Shown here: in pieces, positions 30,550 through 37,014 of the stretch
Layout: every line of letters begins with the position of its first letter
How positions within the stretch are numbered: position 1 is the stretch's first letter
NCBI GenBank assembly: GCA_945787715.1
Contig: CALZJE010000018.1
Coordinates: 1-53,588 of the forward strand
Source of the DNA: an uncultured Ectothiorhodospiraceae bacterium
GTDB taxonomy: Bacteria; Pseudomonadota; Gammaproteobacteria; S012-40
DNA length: 53,588 nucleotides
Reading direction: 5' to 3'
Position numbers and translations under genes: made by a program
Notes under the pieces: model-generated
Told to the model about the DNA's origin: nothing
Databases searched by the model: none
Seen by the model: only the letters and a program-made list of their open reading frames with translations

Positions 30550-31338
30550 ATGGCTGTAAAACCCAAGAAAAAAGCAATTCAGAAAAATTCTGATAAATTT
30601 CATCTTTTTTCGAAAATTCGCGCCTTAAATTCTCAATTATTGGAATCTTTCCCTAAAGTAAAACTATTTTTCCGTTGGTTTATTCGCATCTTTTTAGGCG
30701 TGTTTCTAATCGATACAGGTTATATGATCGCGATTTGGCCTGAATGGAAATGGTATGCAGATGGACCCGTGTTTAAATCTGCGTTCATAGAAAACTATGA
30801 GAAGGAAAGCTGGCAAAACCGAAACCTGCCAAAACTGCGTTGGTCTCCAATCAGCTGGGAGGAAATTCCTGATCATATGGTTCGCTCTGTACTAACAGCA
30901 GAAGATTCCCGATTTTTTTCGCACGATGGCATAGATACCGAAGCGTTTAAAAAAGCCATGGAATATAACTGGCGCCAAAAAAGATTTGTTTATGGGGCAT
31001 CAACCATATCGCAGCAGACAGTGAAAAATTTTTATCTGAGCACATCACGCAATCCCCTGCGTAAGTGGCATGAATTGTTGCTAACTTATGCAATGGAGCA
31101 AAACCTGAAAAAAAGCAGAATTTTAACACTCTATTTAAACGTAGCAGAATTTGGTCCAGGAGTTTACGGTATTGAAGCTGCGGCACAACGTTATTGGGGA
31201 ATTAGCGCTCAACAATTAAGCAAATCTCAAGCAATCGAATTAGCGGCAACCTTGCCAGCACCCAAAAAGCATAACCCTCGTACGCGTACCAAGTTTTTCC
31301 TTAAGCAGAAAGCAAAAATAACACGCAATATGGGTTAA
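30550..31338 (+). CDS. mtgA: Monofunctional peptidoglycan glycosyltransferase
   Basis: 262 residues. A basic N-terminus and one membrane anchor (about 45-65) are followed by a GT51 domain with the catalytic glutamate in LTAEDSRFFSHDGID, then STISQQTVKNFYLS and the LYLNVAEFGPGVYGIEAAAQRYWG motif. It polymerises lipid II glycan strands at the inner membrane. It ends TRNMG, and the stop TAA lies inside the left inverted repeat of an element at 31333-31583. E. coli MtgA runs about 15 residues further past the equivalent point, so the tail may have been cut or replaced by the insertion. Confidence 0.93.
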   Translation: MAVKPKKKAIQKNSDKFHLFSKIRALNSQLLESFPKVKLFFRWFIRIFLGVFLIDTGYMIAIWPEWKWYADGPVFKSAFIENYEKESWQNRNLPKLRWSPISWEEIPDHMVRSVLTAEDSRFFSHDGIDTEAFKKAMEYNWRQKRFVYGASTISQQTVKNFYLSTSRNPLRKWHELLLTYAMEQNLKKSRILTLYLNVAEFGPGVYGIEAAAQRYWGISAQQLSKSQAIELAATLPAPKKHNPRTRTKFFLKQKAKITRNMG

Positions 31339-31991: not shown

Positions 31992-34900
31992 ATGAGCACA
32001 GTTACAGCTTCTTATTCGGCCATTAAGCTACTCGCCATCGCTGGCGTTTTCGCTGCGTCGGCAGTAACGATATATTATTTCGCCAATGAGAAGTATGCGT
32101 CACAACAAAATGAACAAGAATTAATCTCTCCCATCTCTCCAGTAACTGTTGTTGAAAAAACTCATCTATCTCCAACGCAAATCAAGCCGTCTGAATCGTT
32201 CGACAAAAGTAGGGAGTTAACTGAACTAGAACGAGCCGCTTTTGAGGAACTGGCCCAATCAAAAGATCGTGAAATAGATGACACATTAATTGTTTCGATA
32301 AGCAACGCCTATTTTCTTCTACGACAATCCATTAATAATTACAAATCCACAACATCTAAATTCACGCCTAGCGAAGTTGCATTTTTTTCATCCGTAGAAA
32401 AACTTACTTTTGTTGATGCGTTAATCAAAAGCAATTCTTTAAGCAGCGATCATAAAGCAGAGCTTTGGATTGTCACTTTTTGGCAAGCCCTGATAAATCA
32501 AATTAATTTATTTCACTCGAAAGCAATCGACTTACACATTAGTACTATTAATCAAGCGCCGGTGAGCGAACAATCAAACAAGCAAAGAATCTTAAAGCTC
32601 ATTGAGCAGAACTATCTTGTTGCTTCACCAGAGAAGCGTGATCCTGAGCAAACTGAAGTTATTATCAATCTACACAACAACATTTTAGGCAAACATCATC
32701 CTAATATAGCCGTTTACATTAATGCATTAGGAGAACATTATTTCGTCACTAAACAGTATGAAAAAGCAGAAGAAAGCTTTGAGCGTGCATCTGCCATTTG
32801 GGAACGCAGCGTTTTACCTGATAACGCTATACTCGAAAAACACTATAAACAATTAGCACAAGTCTACATCCACCTGAAAAAATACGATAACGCAGAAAAC
32901 ATTTACCAAAAGCTTCTAGACAATTATGCACTGACATTACCGCCAAATGATCCCATACGATTGGAGGTGTTAGACCAGCTAGCAGGGCTCTATTTGCTAC
33001 AAAATAATTACTCTTCCGCAAGCCAGTATTATAGGCAGGCCCTAGAGCAATGGAGAACAGTACTAGATGCTGAAGATTTCCGACTGGCAAGTAAAATCTC
33101 AAGCCATGCAGATGTACTAGTCATTCTTGGAGACTATCAGCAAGCTGTTAGCTTATACGAAGAAGCTCTAACAATTTTAGAAATTGAGTACGGGCTCGAA
33201 AGTAAAGAATACGCAAGCGGTTTAGCTAAACTCGCTGAAACATATCTACTACAGGCCAAGTATGAAAAAGCGTTGTCTCTTTTTCAATCACTGGCGGATA
33301 ATCTAAAGCCCAACTTGAGTTCTGATGACCTCGTTATCGCAAATACGCTATATCAAATGGGTAAAATAAACACCATTCTGGCAAACTATAAACTAGCCAA
33401 GATTCAACACTACAAGGCGCTGAAGATTCAACAAAAGTATCTTTCTGATAACTCCCCAGAAATCTCTGACACATTACATAGTTTGGCAAACTATTTGTTA
33501 GTTACTGGTCAATTTAGGCATGCCCATAAAACAATTTTAAAAAGCATTCGCTTAAACAAGTCAAAATATGGAAAGCAACACCCACGATATGCCGCTGATT
33601 TAACATTACTTGCCAATATTTATTTTCAGTTAGGCCAATTTAACAACGCAGAATCCTTTTACCTTCAATCTCAACAAATACGCAAGCGTTATTTTCAACC
33701 CAACTCTGTGGCAATGCTTGATAATAAATTTGGATTAGCGCTAATCGATACAGATCAGGCTAATTATACGAAAGCAATAAAAGCTCAGAAAGAAATTTTA
33801 ACAATTCGGAAAAAACTTCTATCAAAAGCGCATCCGGATCTAACCCGAAGTTATATTGCACTGGGTAAGCTTTACCGCATCATGTCAGACTATCAAAAAT
33901 CCAGCGCCATGCTAAAAAATGCTGATGACGCTTTAAAAAATTTCATGAAAAAACAGCATCCATTAAAAGCACAACTGCTCAATGAGCAAGGCTTACTTGC
34001 GTCTGCATTGGGTAATTATGCAAACGCTGCCATATCTCAAAAAAATGCCCTTGCTATGAGAATTGAGCTATTTGGAGAAAAACATATCGATGTTGCTGTT
34101 AGTTTAAATGATATTGCCGACCGAATGAGTTTAAACGGAAAATATGAGCAAGCCATGCCACTTTATGAAGAATCAATTAGACTATATACAAACACATTGG
34201 GCGCAACTAATGTAAAAACAGCTAAAAGCACTAACAACCTTGCAGGACTCTATCTTCAAAAAGATGATTTAAAAACTGCTGAAGAACACATTACCAACTC
34301 GGCACGAATCTTCAAAATAACTACCAATCAAAATCACCCCTTCATTGCGCACAATCTAAACAACCAAGCTATCTATTCTAGAAGACTTAAAGATTTTGAC
34401 ACGGCTGAAACTTTCTATCACAGAGCAGAAAATTTATTAGCGACTTCATTAGGTAAAGATCACCCTGAATACGCAACCAATCTTAATAATCAAGCTGTAT
34501 TATTTATGAGTCGTAATAAACAGGAAAAAGCGGAACAACTTTTCAAACGCTCTCTTAGTATTCTATCTGCTACCGTAGGGAATGAACATCCATTGTATGC
34601 TATAACTGCCAACAACTATGCAACTTTACTTTTTCAAAAAAATGATCTTTTAAATGCAGAAAAGTATTTTTTGAAAGCTTTAACGATCCGAGAAAATAAA
34701 TTAGATAAAAACCATATAGCTCTCGCTGATTCGCTAAGCAACGTAGCTGATGTTTTTATACTAAAAGAAAAATATTCAGAAGCAGAACAAAAACTGAGCC
34801 AAGCCAAAACGATTTATAAAAATCAAAAGGGTGAAAAAGCTCCCATCTACTCTCAAACACTTGCAAAAATCGCATCTATCTATCACAGACAAAAATTGTA

Positions 34901-35048
34901 TACAAAATCTGATCAATTATACCAACAAGCCATTAATTTAATGGAATCTAACTTCTCATCGGAGCATCCGATTTTTCTCAACATTCTCGATGATTACAAA
35001 CGTTTACTTAATGACGCAGGTAATGCACTTATATCTATTTCGAAATAA
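31992..35048 (+). CDS. Large membrane-anchored TPR protein
   Basis: 1018 residues. One N-terminal hydrophobic segment (about 12-28) without a lipobox suggests an inner-membrane anchor. From about residue 215 to the end there are well over a dozen repeats of about 42 residues of the kinesin-light-chain-like TPR kind (blocks such as YEKAEESFERASAIWER, NNAESFYLQSQQIRKRYF, AEKYFLKALTIRENKLDKNH). TPR arrays are protein-binding scaffolds. The next gene, 17 bases on, is a TssB-TssC fusion, so the two are almost certainly one operon and this protein may be its partner or anchor. No catalytic domain was seen and the function is unknown. Confidence 0.85.
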   Translation: MSTVTASYSAIKLLAIAGVFAASAVTIYYFANEKYASQQNEQELISPISPVTVVEKTHLSPTQIKPSESFDKSRELTELERAAFEELAQSKDREIDDTLIVSISNAYFLLRQSINNYKSTTSKFTPSEVAFFSSVEKLTFVDALIKSNSLSSDHKAELWIVTFWQALINQINLFHSKAIDLHISTINQAPVSEQSNKQRILKLIEQNYLVASPEKRDPEQTEVIINLHNNILGKHHPNIAVYINALGEHYFVTKQYEKAEESFERASAIWERSVLPDNAILEKHYKQLAQVYIHLKKYDNAENIYQKLLDNYALTLPPNDPIRLEVLDQLAGLYLLQNNYSSASQYYRQALEQWRTVLDAEDFRLASKISSHADVLVILGDYQQAVSLYEEALTILEIEYGLESKEYASGLAKLAETYLLQAKYEKALSLFQSLADNLKPNLSSDDLVIANTLYQMGKINTILANYKLAKIQHYKALKIQQKYLSDNSPEISDTLHSLANYLLVTGQFRHAHKTILKSIRLNKSKYGKQHPRYAADLTLLANIYFQLGQFNNAESFYLQSQQIRKRYFQPNSVAMLDNKFGLALIDTDQANYTKAIKAQKEILTIRKKLLSKAHPDLTRSYIALGKLYRIMSDYQKSSAMLKNADDALKNFMKKQHPLKAQLLNEQGLLASALGNYANAAISQKNALAMRIELFGEKHIDVAVSLNDIADRMSLNGKYEQAMPLYEESIRLYTNTLGATNVKTAKSTNNLAGLYLQKDDLKTAEEHITNSARIFKITTNQNHPFIAHNLNNQAIYSRRLKDFDTAETFYHRAENLLATSLGKDHPEYATNLNNQAVLFMSRNKQEKAEQLFKRSLSILSATVGNEHPLYAITANNYATLLFQKNDLLNAEKYFLKALTIRENKLDKNHIALADSLSNVADVFILKEKYSEAEQKLSQAKTIYKNQKGEKAPIYSQTLAKIASIYHRQKLYTKSDQLYQQAINLMESNFSSEHPIFLNILDDYKRLLNDAGNALISISK

Positions 35049-35065
35049 ATTCAAAGGAAGCCTTT

Positions 35066-36577
35066 ATGCCAGCAAGCACAATTAATTTAGGTAGTGTAAA
35101 TATAGGTGATGGGAAAAATCAATCAATACCAACATCGAAAGAGATGCCATTTCACTTATTGATCCTTGGGGATTTTTCCGCTGAGACTAAATCCCTTCAC
35201 CCCCTTAAACCAATAGAAATTGACCGCGACAATTTTGAAGAAATATTTGAACGGTTCTCTCCCTCTCTTAATCTTGAACTTTCAAATGAAAGCTTGGTAT
35301 TTAAAGAACTTGAACATTTTGAGCCTGATTACCTTTACAATTCACTGAACATATTCGGACAATTAAGATCATTAAAACGCCGTTTGTCAAATACTGATAC
35401 CTACCCAATTGCTGCTGATGAAATTAATAAATGGACAAATCAAGAATCTACAACTACGATTGAAAACCAACCAAAAGATACTGGCACTGAAGATATTCAA
35501 GCGTCCGACAATTTGTTAGACTCCTTACTAAACACGACAGAACAACGTCAACAATCGAATAGTCAACTCTCCCCGAGTAATATTGCTGAACGAATTATTA
35601 AAGATATTATTGCCCCATATATATCACCTGCAACCAATCCAAAACAGCCTGAATACATTAGAATCACTGATGCTGCGATTGCTGATGAAATGAGTCAAAT
35701 CCTCCACTCTGATAAATTTCAACCATTGGAGTCATTATGGCGTGGGATATATTTTCTAGTAAAACGATTAACAACTGATACCAAACTTAAAATCTTCATC
35801 GCTGACATAAGCAAAGAACAGCTGACAAGCGACCTGAATCAAGACAGTATCCTCTCAACAGAACTTTATCGAAATATTATCGAACCTTACAACTCAGCAA
35901 ACAGCAATAAACCATGGTCGCTGATTTTAGGTCATTATCAATTCAAAGAAACCGTTGGTGATATTCAATTGTTAAAGACGCTTTCAAGCTACGCAGCTGA
36001 ATGTAACGCCAGCTTTGTTTCAGAACTACCGAGTACTTTTTTCGGCTGTGAAGATATTAATACAAAAGCTGATTTTGAAAACTGGACTTACAGCTTGGAA
36101 CACGATGTTTCGTCTGCATGGAATGAACTTAGACATTCAGCTCAGTCACAATACTTGGCACTTGGTTACCCTCGTTTTCTTCTCAGATTACCATACGGAA
36201 GTATGAGCAAATCAGTAGAAAGTTTTGAATACGAAGAGATGACCTCACCTGTTCACGGTAACTATCTCTGGAGCAATGGAGGTTTGGCCATAGCCTATAT
36301 CCTCGCTGCTTCCTATAGTGAGTATCAGTGGCAGTTCAAACCAGGTCAACTCAACGAGATTTCCAATTTGCCAATTCACACTTATACTGATGAGCATGGT
36401 GATAAAGAAAGTTATCCATGTGCAGAAATCTTGCTCACTGAACGCGCAGCAGAAAAAATTATCACTTCAGGAATTATCCCCTGTTGGTCTGTAAGAAATG
36501 TTGATGCTGTGCGTGTGGGCCCGTTTGTATCCGCCAATTCCAATTCACGAATTCTAAGTGGTAGGTGGCTGGCTTAG
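35066..36577 (+). CDS. TssB-TssC fusion-like sheath protein (type VI secretion relative)
   Basis: 503 residues. The first 110 residues resemble TssB/VipA: PFHLLILGDFSAETKSLHPL, the IDRDNFEEIFERFSPSL block and FEPDYLYNSLNIFGQLRSLK. A low-complexity linker (about 115-170) follows. From about 175 the protein follows TssC/VipB: FQPLESLWRGIYFLVKR (about 217-233), then WSLILGHYQFKETVGDIQLL, YPRFLLRLPYG (about 367-377) and NYLWSNGGLAIAYILA. TssB and TssC normally form the contractile sheath as separate proteins. None of the baseplate, membrane-complex, Hcp, VgrG or ClpV genes is in the window. A good ribosome site (AAAGGAAG) precedes the ATG. It is co-transcribed with the TPR gene. Confidence 0.85.
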   Translation: MPASTINLGSVNIGDGKNQSIPTSKEMPFHLLILGDFSAETKSLHPLKPIEIDRDNFEEIFERFSPSLNLELSNESLVFKELEHFEPDYLYNSLNIFGQLRSLKRRLSNTDTYPIAADEINKWTNQESTTTIENQPKDTGTEDIQASDNLLDSLLNTTEQRQQSNSQLSPSNIAERIIKDIIAPYISPATNPKQPEYIRITDAAIADEMSQILHSDKFQPLESLWRGIYFLVKRLTTDTKLKIFIADISKEQLTSDLNQDSILSTELYRNIIEPYNSANSNKPWSLILGHYQFKETVGDIQLLKTLSSYAAECNASFVSELPSTFFGCEDINTKADFENWTYSLEHDVSSAWNELRHSAQSQYLALGYPRFLLRLPYGSMSKSVESFEYEEMTSPVHGNYLWSNGGLAIAYILAASYSEYQWQFKPGQLNEISNLPIHTYTDEHGDKESYPCAEILLTERAAEKIITSGIIPCWSVRNVDAVRVGPFVSANSNSRILSGRWLA

Positions 36578-36786: not shown

Positions 36787-37014
36787 ATGTGTCTGGCCAT
36801 TCCGGCAGAAGTGATATCAATCGATGGCGATGTTGCCCAGGTCTCATTGGGCGGTGTGAAAAAAGAGATCTCTTTGGCGCTGGTTGATGATGTAGTGATA
36901 GGCGACTTTGTATTACTTCATGTGGGTTATGCCCTGAATATAATAAACCAGGAAGAGGCGGAAAAAACACTGCAACTCTTCGTTGAAGCAGGCATGTTAG
37001 AGATCCAATCATGA
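36787..37014 (+). CDS. hypC: Hydrogenase maturation chaperone HypC
   Basis: 75 residues, starting MCLAIPAEVISIDGD with the essential Cys2 of the HypC/HupF family, then the OB-like segment VSLGGVKKEISLAL and GDFVLLHVGYALNII. HypC binds the iron carried by HypD and delivers the Fe(CN)2CO unit to the hydrogenase large subunit. Its stop overlaps the hypD start (ATGA at 37011). It is the first hyp gene here; the 5' neighbour is unrelated. Confidence 0.96.
   Translation: MCLAIPAEVISIDGDVAQVSLGGVKKEISLALVDDVVIGDFVLLHVGYALNIINQEEAEKTLQLFVEAGMLEIQS

Follow-up and report, generated by a model that had tools for sequence, protein, structure and literature searches.

A truncated TssB-TssC fusion protein linked to type VI secretion systems

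Introduction

In Vibrio, ClpV binds TssC via an N-terminal helix with the motif LLDEII (PMC4239648). The docking of ClpV on the TssC helix shows variations outside Vibrio (PMC5048182), and it may be modified in type VI secretion systems (T6SSs) that carry TagJ, a ClpV-sheath adaptor (PMC4239648). TssA/TagA-like proteins are caps or anchors of the sheath (PMC6745524), and a 2017 cryo-EM study called the composition of the sheath distal end unclear (PMC5813253). In the open-licence literature we found no description of TssB-TssC fusions or of sheath-domain proteins of the kind reported here.

The window (the whole stretch of DNA that was analyzed, 53,588 nucleotides) comes from an uncultured Ectothiorhodospiraceae bacterium. 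A preliminary description of it proposed a natural TssB-TssC fusion with a TPR scaffold as its only partner, and offered three options for its function: a minimal contractile or tubular assembly, a regulator of a T6SS elsewhere, or a domesticated sheath protein with a new role.

The gene pair and its domains

Two genes had been claimed at 31992-36577, and both open reading frames (ORFs) are present. Their products are called TPR1018 and FUS503 here. The features of the locus are:

30550-31338, + strand: mtgA-like gene for a monofunctional peptidoglycan glycosyltransferase, the upstream neighbor (ORF)
31992-35048, + strand: TPR1018, TPR protein of 1018 aa with an N-terminal hydrophobic signal or anchor, probably exported, likely in an operon with FUS503 (ORF, Pfam)
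35054-35060, + strand: Shine-Dalgarno-like AAGGAAG ahead of FUS503, 5 nt from the ATG
35066-36577, + strand: FUS503, truncated TssB-TssC(N) fusion protein of 503 aa (ORF, Pfam, NCBIfam, PDB search, AlphaFold2, Foldseek)
35066-35131, + strand: putative N-terminal arm, aa 1-22, containing TINLGSVNIG, placed where VipA has its N-terminal linker strand (modeled with low confidence in the monomer)
35132-35398, + strand: TssB/VipA core, aa 23-111, PF05591 (Pfam, NCBIfam, AlphaFold2)
35510-35536, + strand: helix in the linker, NLLDSLLNT, aa 149-157, similar to the helix on which ClpV docks in TssC/VipB (LLDEII; PMC4239648, PMC5048182)
35657-36538, + strand: TssC/VipB N-terminal domain, aa 198-491, PF05943; the protein ends just past this domain (Pfam)

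The stop of TPR1018 and the start of FUS503 are 17 nt apart on the same strand and AAGGAAG precedes the second ATG, so one transcript is likely for the two genes. Scans for promoters and terminators around them gave results no better than chance, and anti-phage defence models had no match. Further downstream in the window, at 36787-37014 (+), a short hypC-like ORF (MCLAIPAEVISIDGD...) overlaps the start of hypD; it is under the length limit of the ORF list.

In Pfam searches, the VipB/TssC N-terminal domain (E=8.9e-59) and T6SS_VipA/TssB (E=1.6e-10) both matched FUS503 above the curated cut-offs, and thus the proposed fusion, co-directional with the TPR gene, was borne out by two domains in a single ORF. 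The NCBIfam equivalogs remained under their cut-offs (202.8 bits against 271.5 for TIGR03355 TssC, 36.1 bits against 97.25 for TIGR03358 TssB), although PF05591 was passed. In a PDB sequence search FUS503 matched TssC structures to E=3.7e-39 and TssB chains weakly. The AlphaFold2 model of FUS503 (mean pLDDT 83.9, pTM 0.82) has two confident regions flanking a linker, which is disordered save for a short helix at aa 151-155. The preliminary description had suggested a comparison of the predicted structure with VipA/VipB; the best Foldseek matches of the model were the TssC/VipB chains 5n8n, 3j9g, and 5myu (top match 5n8n_B, E=3.6e-20; TM about 0.5-0.6). FUS503 has no signal sequence.

The fusion holds parts of both subunits in a single chain, but it is incomplete. 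PF18945, the gpW/gp25-like C-terminal domain of TssC, is absent from FUS503 while it is present in the full-length fusions of two T6SS clusters (L049, L050). The truncated relatives stop at the same point as FUS503 and share an ending of their own, LxGxW. Since PF18945 is missing, FUS503 is not a complete sheath protomer. The idea of a single-chain protomer that would force one-to-one stoichiometry is not supported either, because the inner domain that accepts neighboring subunits is absent. At the other end of the protein, a strand-like N-terminal arm (TINLGSVNIG) lies at about the canonical spacing, and from this pattern and spacing it is presumably a VipA-type donor arm. With a putative donor arm kept and the acceptor domain lost, FUS503 could dock and no further subunit could dock on FUS503.

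Complete fusions were seen elsewhere. A single ORF of 663 aa contains a complete TssB-TssC at L133:9043-11034 (+) and in L251 (genome G346, contig C9). In its T6SS cluster (hcp, tssF, tssG, tssK, tssL, tssM, and tssA are nearby) the 663-aa fusion of G346 seems to be accompanied by no other sheath gene, and, judged by its sequence, it appears to be a genuine single-chain protomer such as the preliminary description had imagined. Other full-length fusions adjoin tssM (L049:4923-6716 (-), L050:4455-6251 (-), and L135:2481-4235 (-)), with hcp also in L049 and L135. The L049 and L050 clusters also hold separate tssB and tssC genes, and L135 is a short contig.

T6SS genes and a second fusion in the same genome

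Searches of the window's ORFs with a set of T6SS reference proteins found no T6SS gene besides the fusion. The earlier observation that no other type VI gene is nearby therefore holds for the window. Elsewhere in the genome, however, two contigs together encode a T6SS that is essentially complete as judged by the following genes. Contig C41 carries tssA, tssB, tssC, a second tssC-like gene, tagJ, tssE, tssF, tssG, and clpV, and contig C63 carries fha, tssJ, tssK, tssL, and tssM; tssE, clpV, tssK, and tssM had all been named in advance as genes to look for. With tagJ on C41, this T6SS is of the TagJ-bearing kind. Contig C63 also has tagF-like and PP2C phosphatase-like genes, as read from their sequences. 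A second fusion of 584 aa (FUS584; G000:C20:1342-3096, locus L004), full-length and very divergent, is encoded in the genome as well. Relatives of FUS584 in genomes G007 and G008 are located directly downstream of mtgA.

Distribution of the fusion family

Single-protein scans of genome-contig and viral-contig collections gave no relative of FUS503. An alignment-based scan of the genome collection gave 153 relatives, and among the 80 loci kept, 58 were truncated fusions by score. Truncated fusions were found in at least about 15 of 369 sampled genomes of the class, a lower bound as three candidates per genome were scored, and three more were found in the phylum sample. Relatives truncated like FUS503 occur in at least six bacterial phyla, and their hosts include Gammaproteobacteria, Massilia, Pseudoduganella, Acidobacteria, Planctomycetes, Desulfobacterales, Rokubacteria, and Thermodesulfovibrionia. 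In a tree of the TssC part, a strongly supported branch has canonical TssC on one side; thus the truncated fusions group apart from TssC, in agreement with a single origin. They diverge faster than canonical TssC. There are at least two further fusion types, the FUS584-like sequences and the full-length fusions within T6SS clusters.

Truncated fusions also occur in T6SS clusters on Rhodobacterales plasmids, where the fusion immediately precedes vgrG or is separated from it by one small gene. These fusions are publicly annotated as a second "contractile sheath large subunit", with cultured plasmid-borne examples in Leisingera and Phaeobacter. Three of them (L282:13733-17725 (+), L283:14459-17650, and L284:12084-15707) are extended by a long acidic stretch in which LDDLLGDL-like motifs recur, and their tail is acidic. 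The fusion ORF of Phaeobacter sp. G2 opens with a further complete TssB module, and its annotated gene start is far too late.

The family is nearly restricted to genomes that have a T6SS. Of the 56 fusion-bearing genomes tested, 54 gave a TssK match, that is, all 35 genomes from several phyla and 19 of 21 from a list that mostly contains truncated fusions and includes the full-length types of G007, G008, G346, and G378. The two negative genomes are G218 (95% complete) and G212 (87% complete); in G218, which encodes a truncated fusion on contig C179 (L121:1394-2923), neither TssK nor another TssC was found. In the class sample, 15 of 73 T6SS-positive genomes had a truncated fusion, versus 1 of 296 T6SS-negative genomes (Fisher p=1e-10, uncorrected for kinship). 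Because the family is almost confined to T6SS genomes, FUS503 most likely helps or regulates a T6SS and is not a new stand-alone system. The co-occurrence is near-constant, and among the three options offered at first the data favor regulation of a T6SS encoded elsewhere.

The linker helix

The linker of FUS503 contains NLLDSLL, which resembles the ClpV-docking helix of TssC. An LLDxIL-like helix is present in the linkers of 38 of 47 relatives, compared to a mean of 0.57 expected from shuffling, and it is conserved within an otherwise variable linker. In all 22 genomes with both proteins, the helix class of the fusion is that of the genome's own TssC: TssC proteins with an LLEQxI-like start accompany fusions with LLDxxL, and those with DFSxLLxKEFKP accompany fusions with an xLxRLLGxxP-like helix. 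The two class patterns behind this match were defined after inspection of the sequences. On the tree, the classes of the 22 genomes occupy no more than two or three clades. The match thus reflects co-inheritance with maintained similarity and not many independent changes in both proteins; as independent evidence it was rejected, since it amounts to two or three changes. TagJ was found in 13 of 18 fusion-positive genomes versus 7 of 42 other T6SS genomes (p=6e-5).

Possible roles of FUS503

The link of the FUS503 family to the T6SS is well supported, and the mechanism that follows is what we infer from it. FUS503 is very probably a T6SS accessory that cannot polymerize by itself. The fuller statement, taken loosely, that it is a sheath-derived accessory which can dock on sheath, TssE, or ClpV but cannot itself be built upon, and which would cap or regulate the sheath, is probable. 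By folding back, the chain would form the outer "handle" known from sheath protomers, and its donor arm would dock on a free acceptor, either the last sheath ring or the gp25-like TssE. With no acceptor domain on FUS503, no further subunit would dock, and FUS503 could serve the T6SS on C41 and C63 as a cap, a limiter, or a primer of its sheath. It might then present a ClpV docking site at the sheath end, or sequester or recruit ClpV. FUS503 would act in trans and would need neither TPR1018 nor a separate tube. Capping or limiting the sheath with ClpV docking would be the most economical reading, although we hold the specific form, a cap or terminator with ClpV docking, only tentatively. Several observations count against the reading as a whole: genome G218, the many copies (that of the window included) away from T6SS genes, the possible co-inheritance behind the class match, and the TagJ of the genome's own T6SS, a kind of system where ClpV docking on the TssC helix may differ. 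Still more speculative is a dedicated and widely distributed sheath-terminating protomer that donates an arm, offers no acceptor, caps and limits the sheath, and marks its end for ClpV via a helix of the cognate class. If this were true, such a protomer would be a previously unrecognized T6SS component hidden in databases as TssC.

Alternatively, FUS503 might be a ClpV decoy or adaptor that titrates or recruits ClpV via the linker helix and sets the rate of sheath recycling, with no binding to the sheath end. The helix is conserved in a variable linker and follows the class of the cognate TssC, the family is associated with TagJ-bearing systems, and truncated fusions are frequently located directly after clpV (L175, L232, L234, and L240). 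However, a decoy leaves the conservation of the whole TssB-TssC handle and of the N-terminal arm unexplained, and the class match rests on few events, so we regard this role as possible but rather unlikely.

Many relatives are inside T6SS clusters, while the window copy and many others are not beside T6SS genes; the refutation named at first, that the pair always occurs inside complete type VI clusters, thus holds in part. Besides the position after clpV, truncated fusions are found before tssA (L129), before tssB (L170), and beside an FHA gene (L247). Three Terriglobia loci (L197, L201, and L216) have the fusion and tssK in one operon, and many loci have the fusion near vgrG (L183, L207, L212, L215, L235, and the Rhodobacterales clusters L282-L284). 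These last two arrangements could point to a factor on the baseplate or spike side, a pseudo-first ring linking TssK/TssE or VgrG assembly to the sheath. Such a factor is improbable, as the neighbors vary, no baseplate-like domain is present, and orphan copies have no such neighbor. Two other arrangements were seen repeatedly. In eight Acidobacteria loci, mostly Pyrinomonadaceae (L178, L179, L184, L185, L187, L188, L199, and L200), the truncated fusion is directly upstream of an mnmG-like gene, often with parA/parB-like genes next, and in five Gammaproteobacterial loci (L171, L172, L173, L177, and L180) a gene for a small CBS-domain protein directly follows the fusion.

TPR1018 is nearly all TPR (PF13424, E=1.4e-100, 12 stretches), with a single hydrophobic segment at about aa 13-31. 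Its non-TPR N-terminus has one homolog among 56 genomes, in the same genus. This homolog is encoded directly downstream of mtgA, on a contig that ends before any fusion could follow, and begins with a lipoprotein-type signal (LTSLTGC). Since the homolog starts like an exported lipoprotein, TPR1018 is probably exported; FUS503 has no signal, and a direct scaffold role of TPR1018 for FUS503 is therefore doubtful. The TPR protein is adjacent and co-directional as described, but as an obligate scaffold it is poorly backed: its N-terminus is limited to the genus, and the search of other genomes for the pair gave many fusion relatives that mostly have other neighbors. A conserved TPR1018 partner was rejected, and we consider TPR1018 a lineage-specific neighbor. 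On the other hand, TPR genes of other kinds, detected by iterated HMMs, are enriched beside truncated fusions (11 of 123 same-strand genes within two genes versus 3 of 567 further off, p=9e-7; some loci are not independent, and the 11 include the window), so chance alone may not account for the TPR/FUS503 pairing. In Planctomycetes and Massilia-type loci these neighbors are TPR-methyltransferases, and in Planctomycetes also TPR-glycosyltransferase 41. Examples adjoining truncated fusions are at L210:11454-12809 and L224:11453-12793 and in L207 and L203.

This enrichment, the genome G218 without a detectable T6SS, and the linkage of mtgA with the TPR gene within the genus and, in two further genera of the family, with full-length fusions could suggest a domesticated sheath remnant, which would have a non-secretion role with the TPR protein, possibly at the envelope or with MtgA. 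We find this quite improbable given the presence of TssK in nearly all fusion-bearing genomes and the probable export of the TPR protein. The mtgA-linked fusions of G007 and G008 belong to another fusion lineage; a linkage of mtgA to fusions was seen in these two genomes and not in G004 and G009, and it was rejected as a functional clue.

A stand-alone minimal contractile or tubular assembly, which the sheath-derived sequence and orphan location could suggest, was rejected as extremely unlikely because the acceptor domain is absent, the window has no tube, baseplate, or spike gene, and the relatives occur with T6SSs. A decaying pseudogene of a sheath operon, despite the fast divergence, is hardly conceivable and was rejected given intact ORFs in dozens of genomes, the conserved LxGxW ending and linker helix, and the group separate from TssC.

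Comparison with known systems

A sheath-derived cap built from a non-polymerizing part of the sheath and a ClpV-docking-like helix, as FUS503 may be, has to be compared with several known proteins. Like the TssC/VipB and TssB/VipA sheath, FUS503 has the TssC N-terminal domain, the TssB core, and a docking-like helix. Unlike the sheath, it is a single chain with no gpW/gp25-like domain and a shortened TssB C-terminus, is on a separate group of the tree, and coexists with canonical tssB and tssC. TagJ/HsiE (PMC4239648) is likewise an accessory tied to ClpV-sheath handling and co-occurs with the fusion above expectation, but it is of a different family and binds the N-terminus of TssB, while the fusion mimics the sheath. 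TssA/TagA-like cap or anchor proteins (PMC6745524) resemble FUS503 in the sheath-end role proposed here; they are a different family, and FUS503 has no ImpA_N domain. The second TssC-like protein of the genome's own T6SS (C41, L005 7873-9369) is also an extra paralog of the sheath large subunit, but it is full length and has no TssB part. Thus, FUS503 is ordinary as a T6SS-derived gene, and not ordinary as a member of a widespread, conserved, and apparently unnamed family of sheath paralogs called TssC in public annotation, one that makes the control of sheath length, its disassembly, and the make-up of its distal end testable questions.
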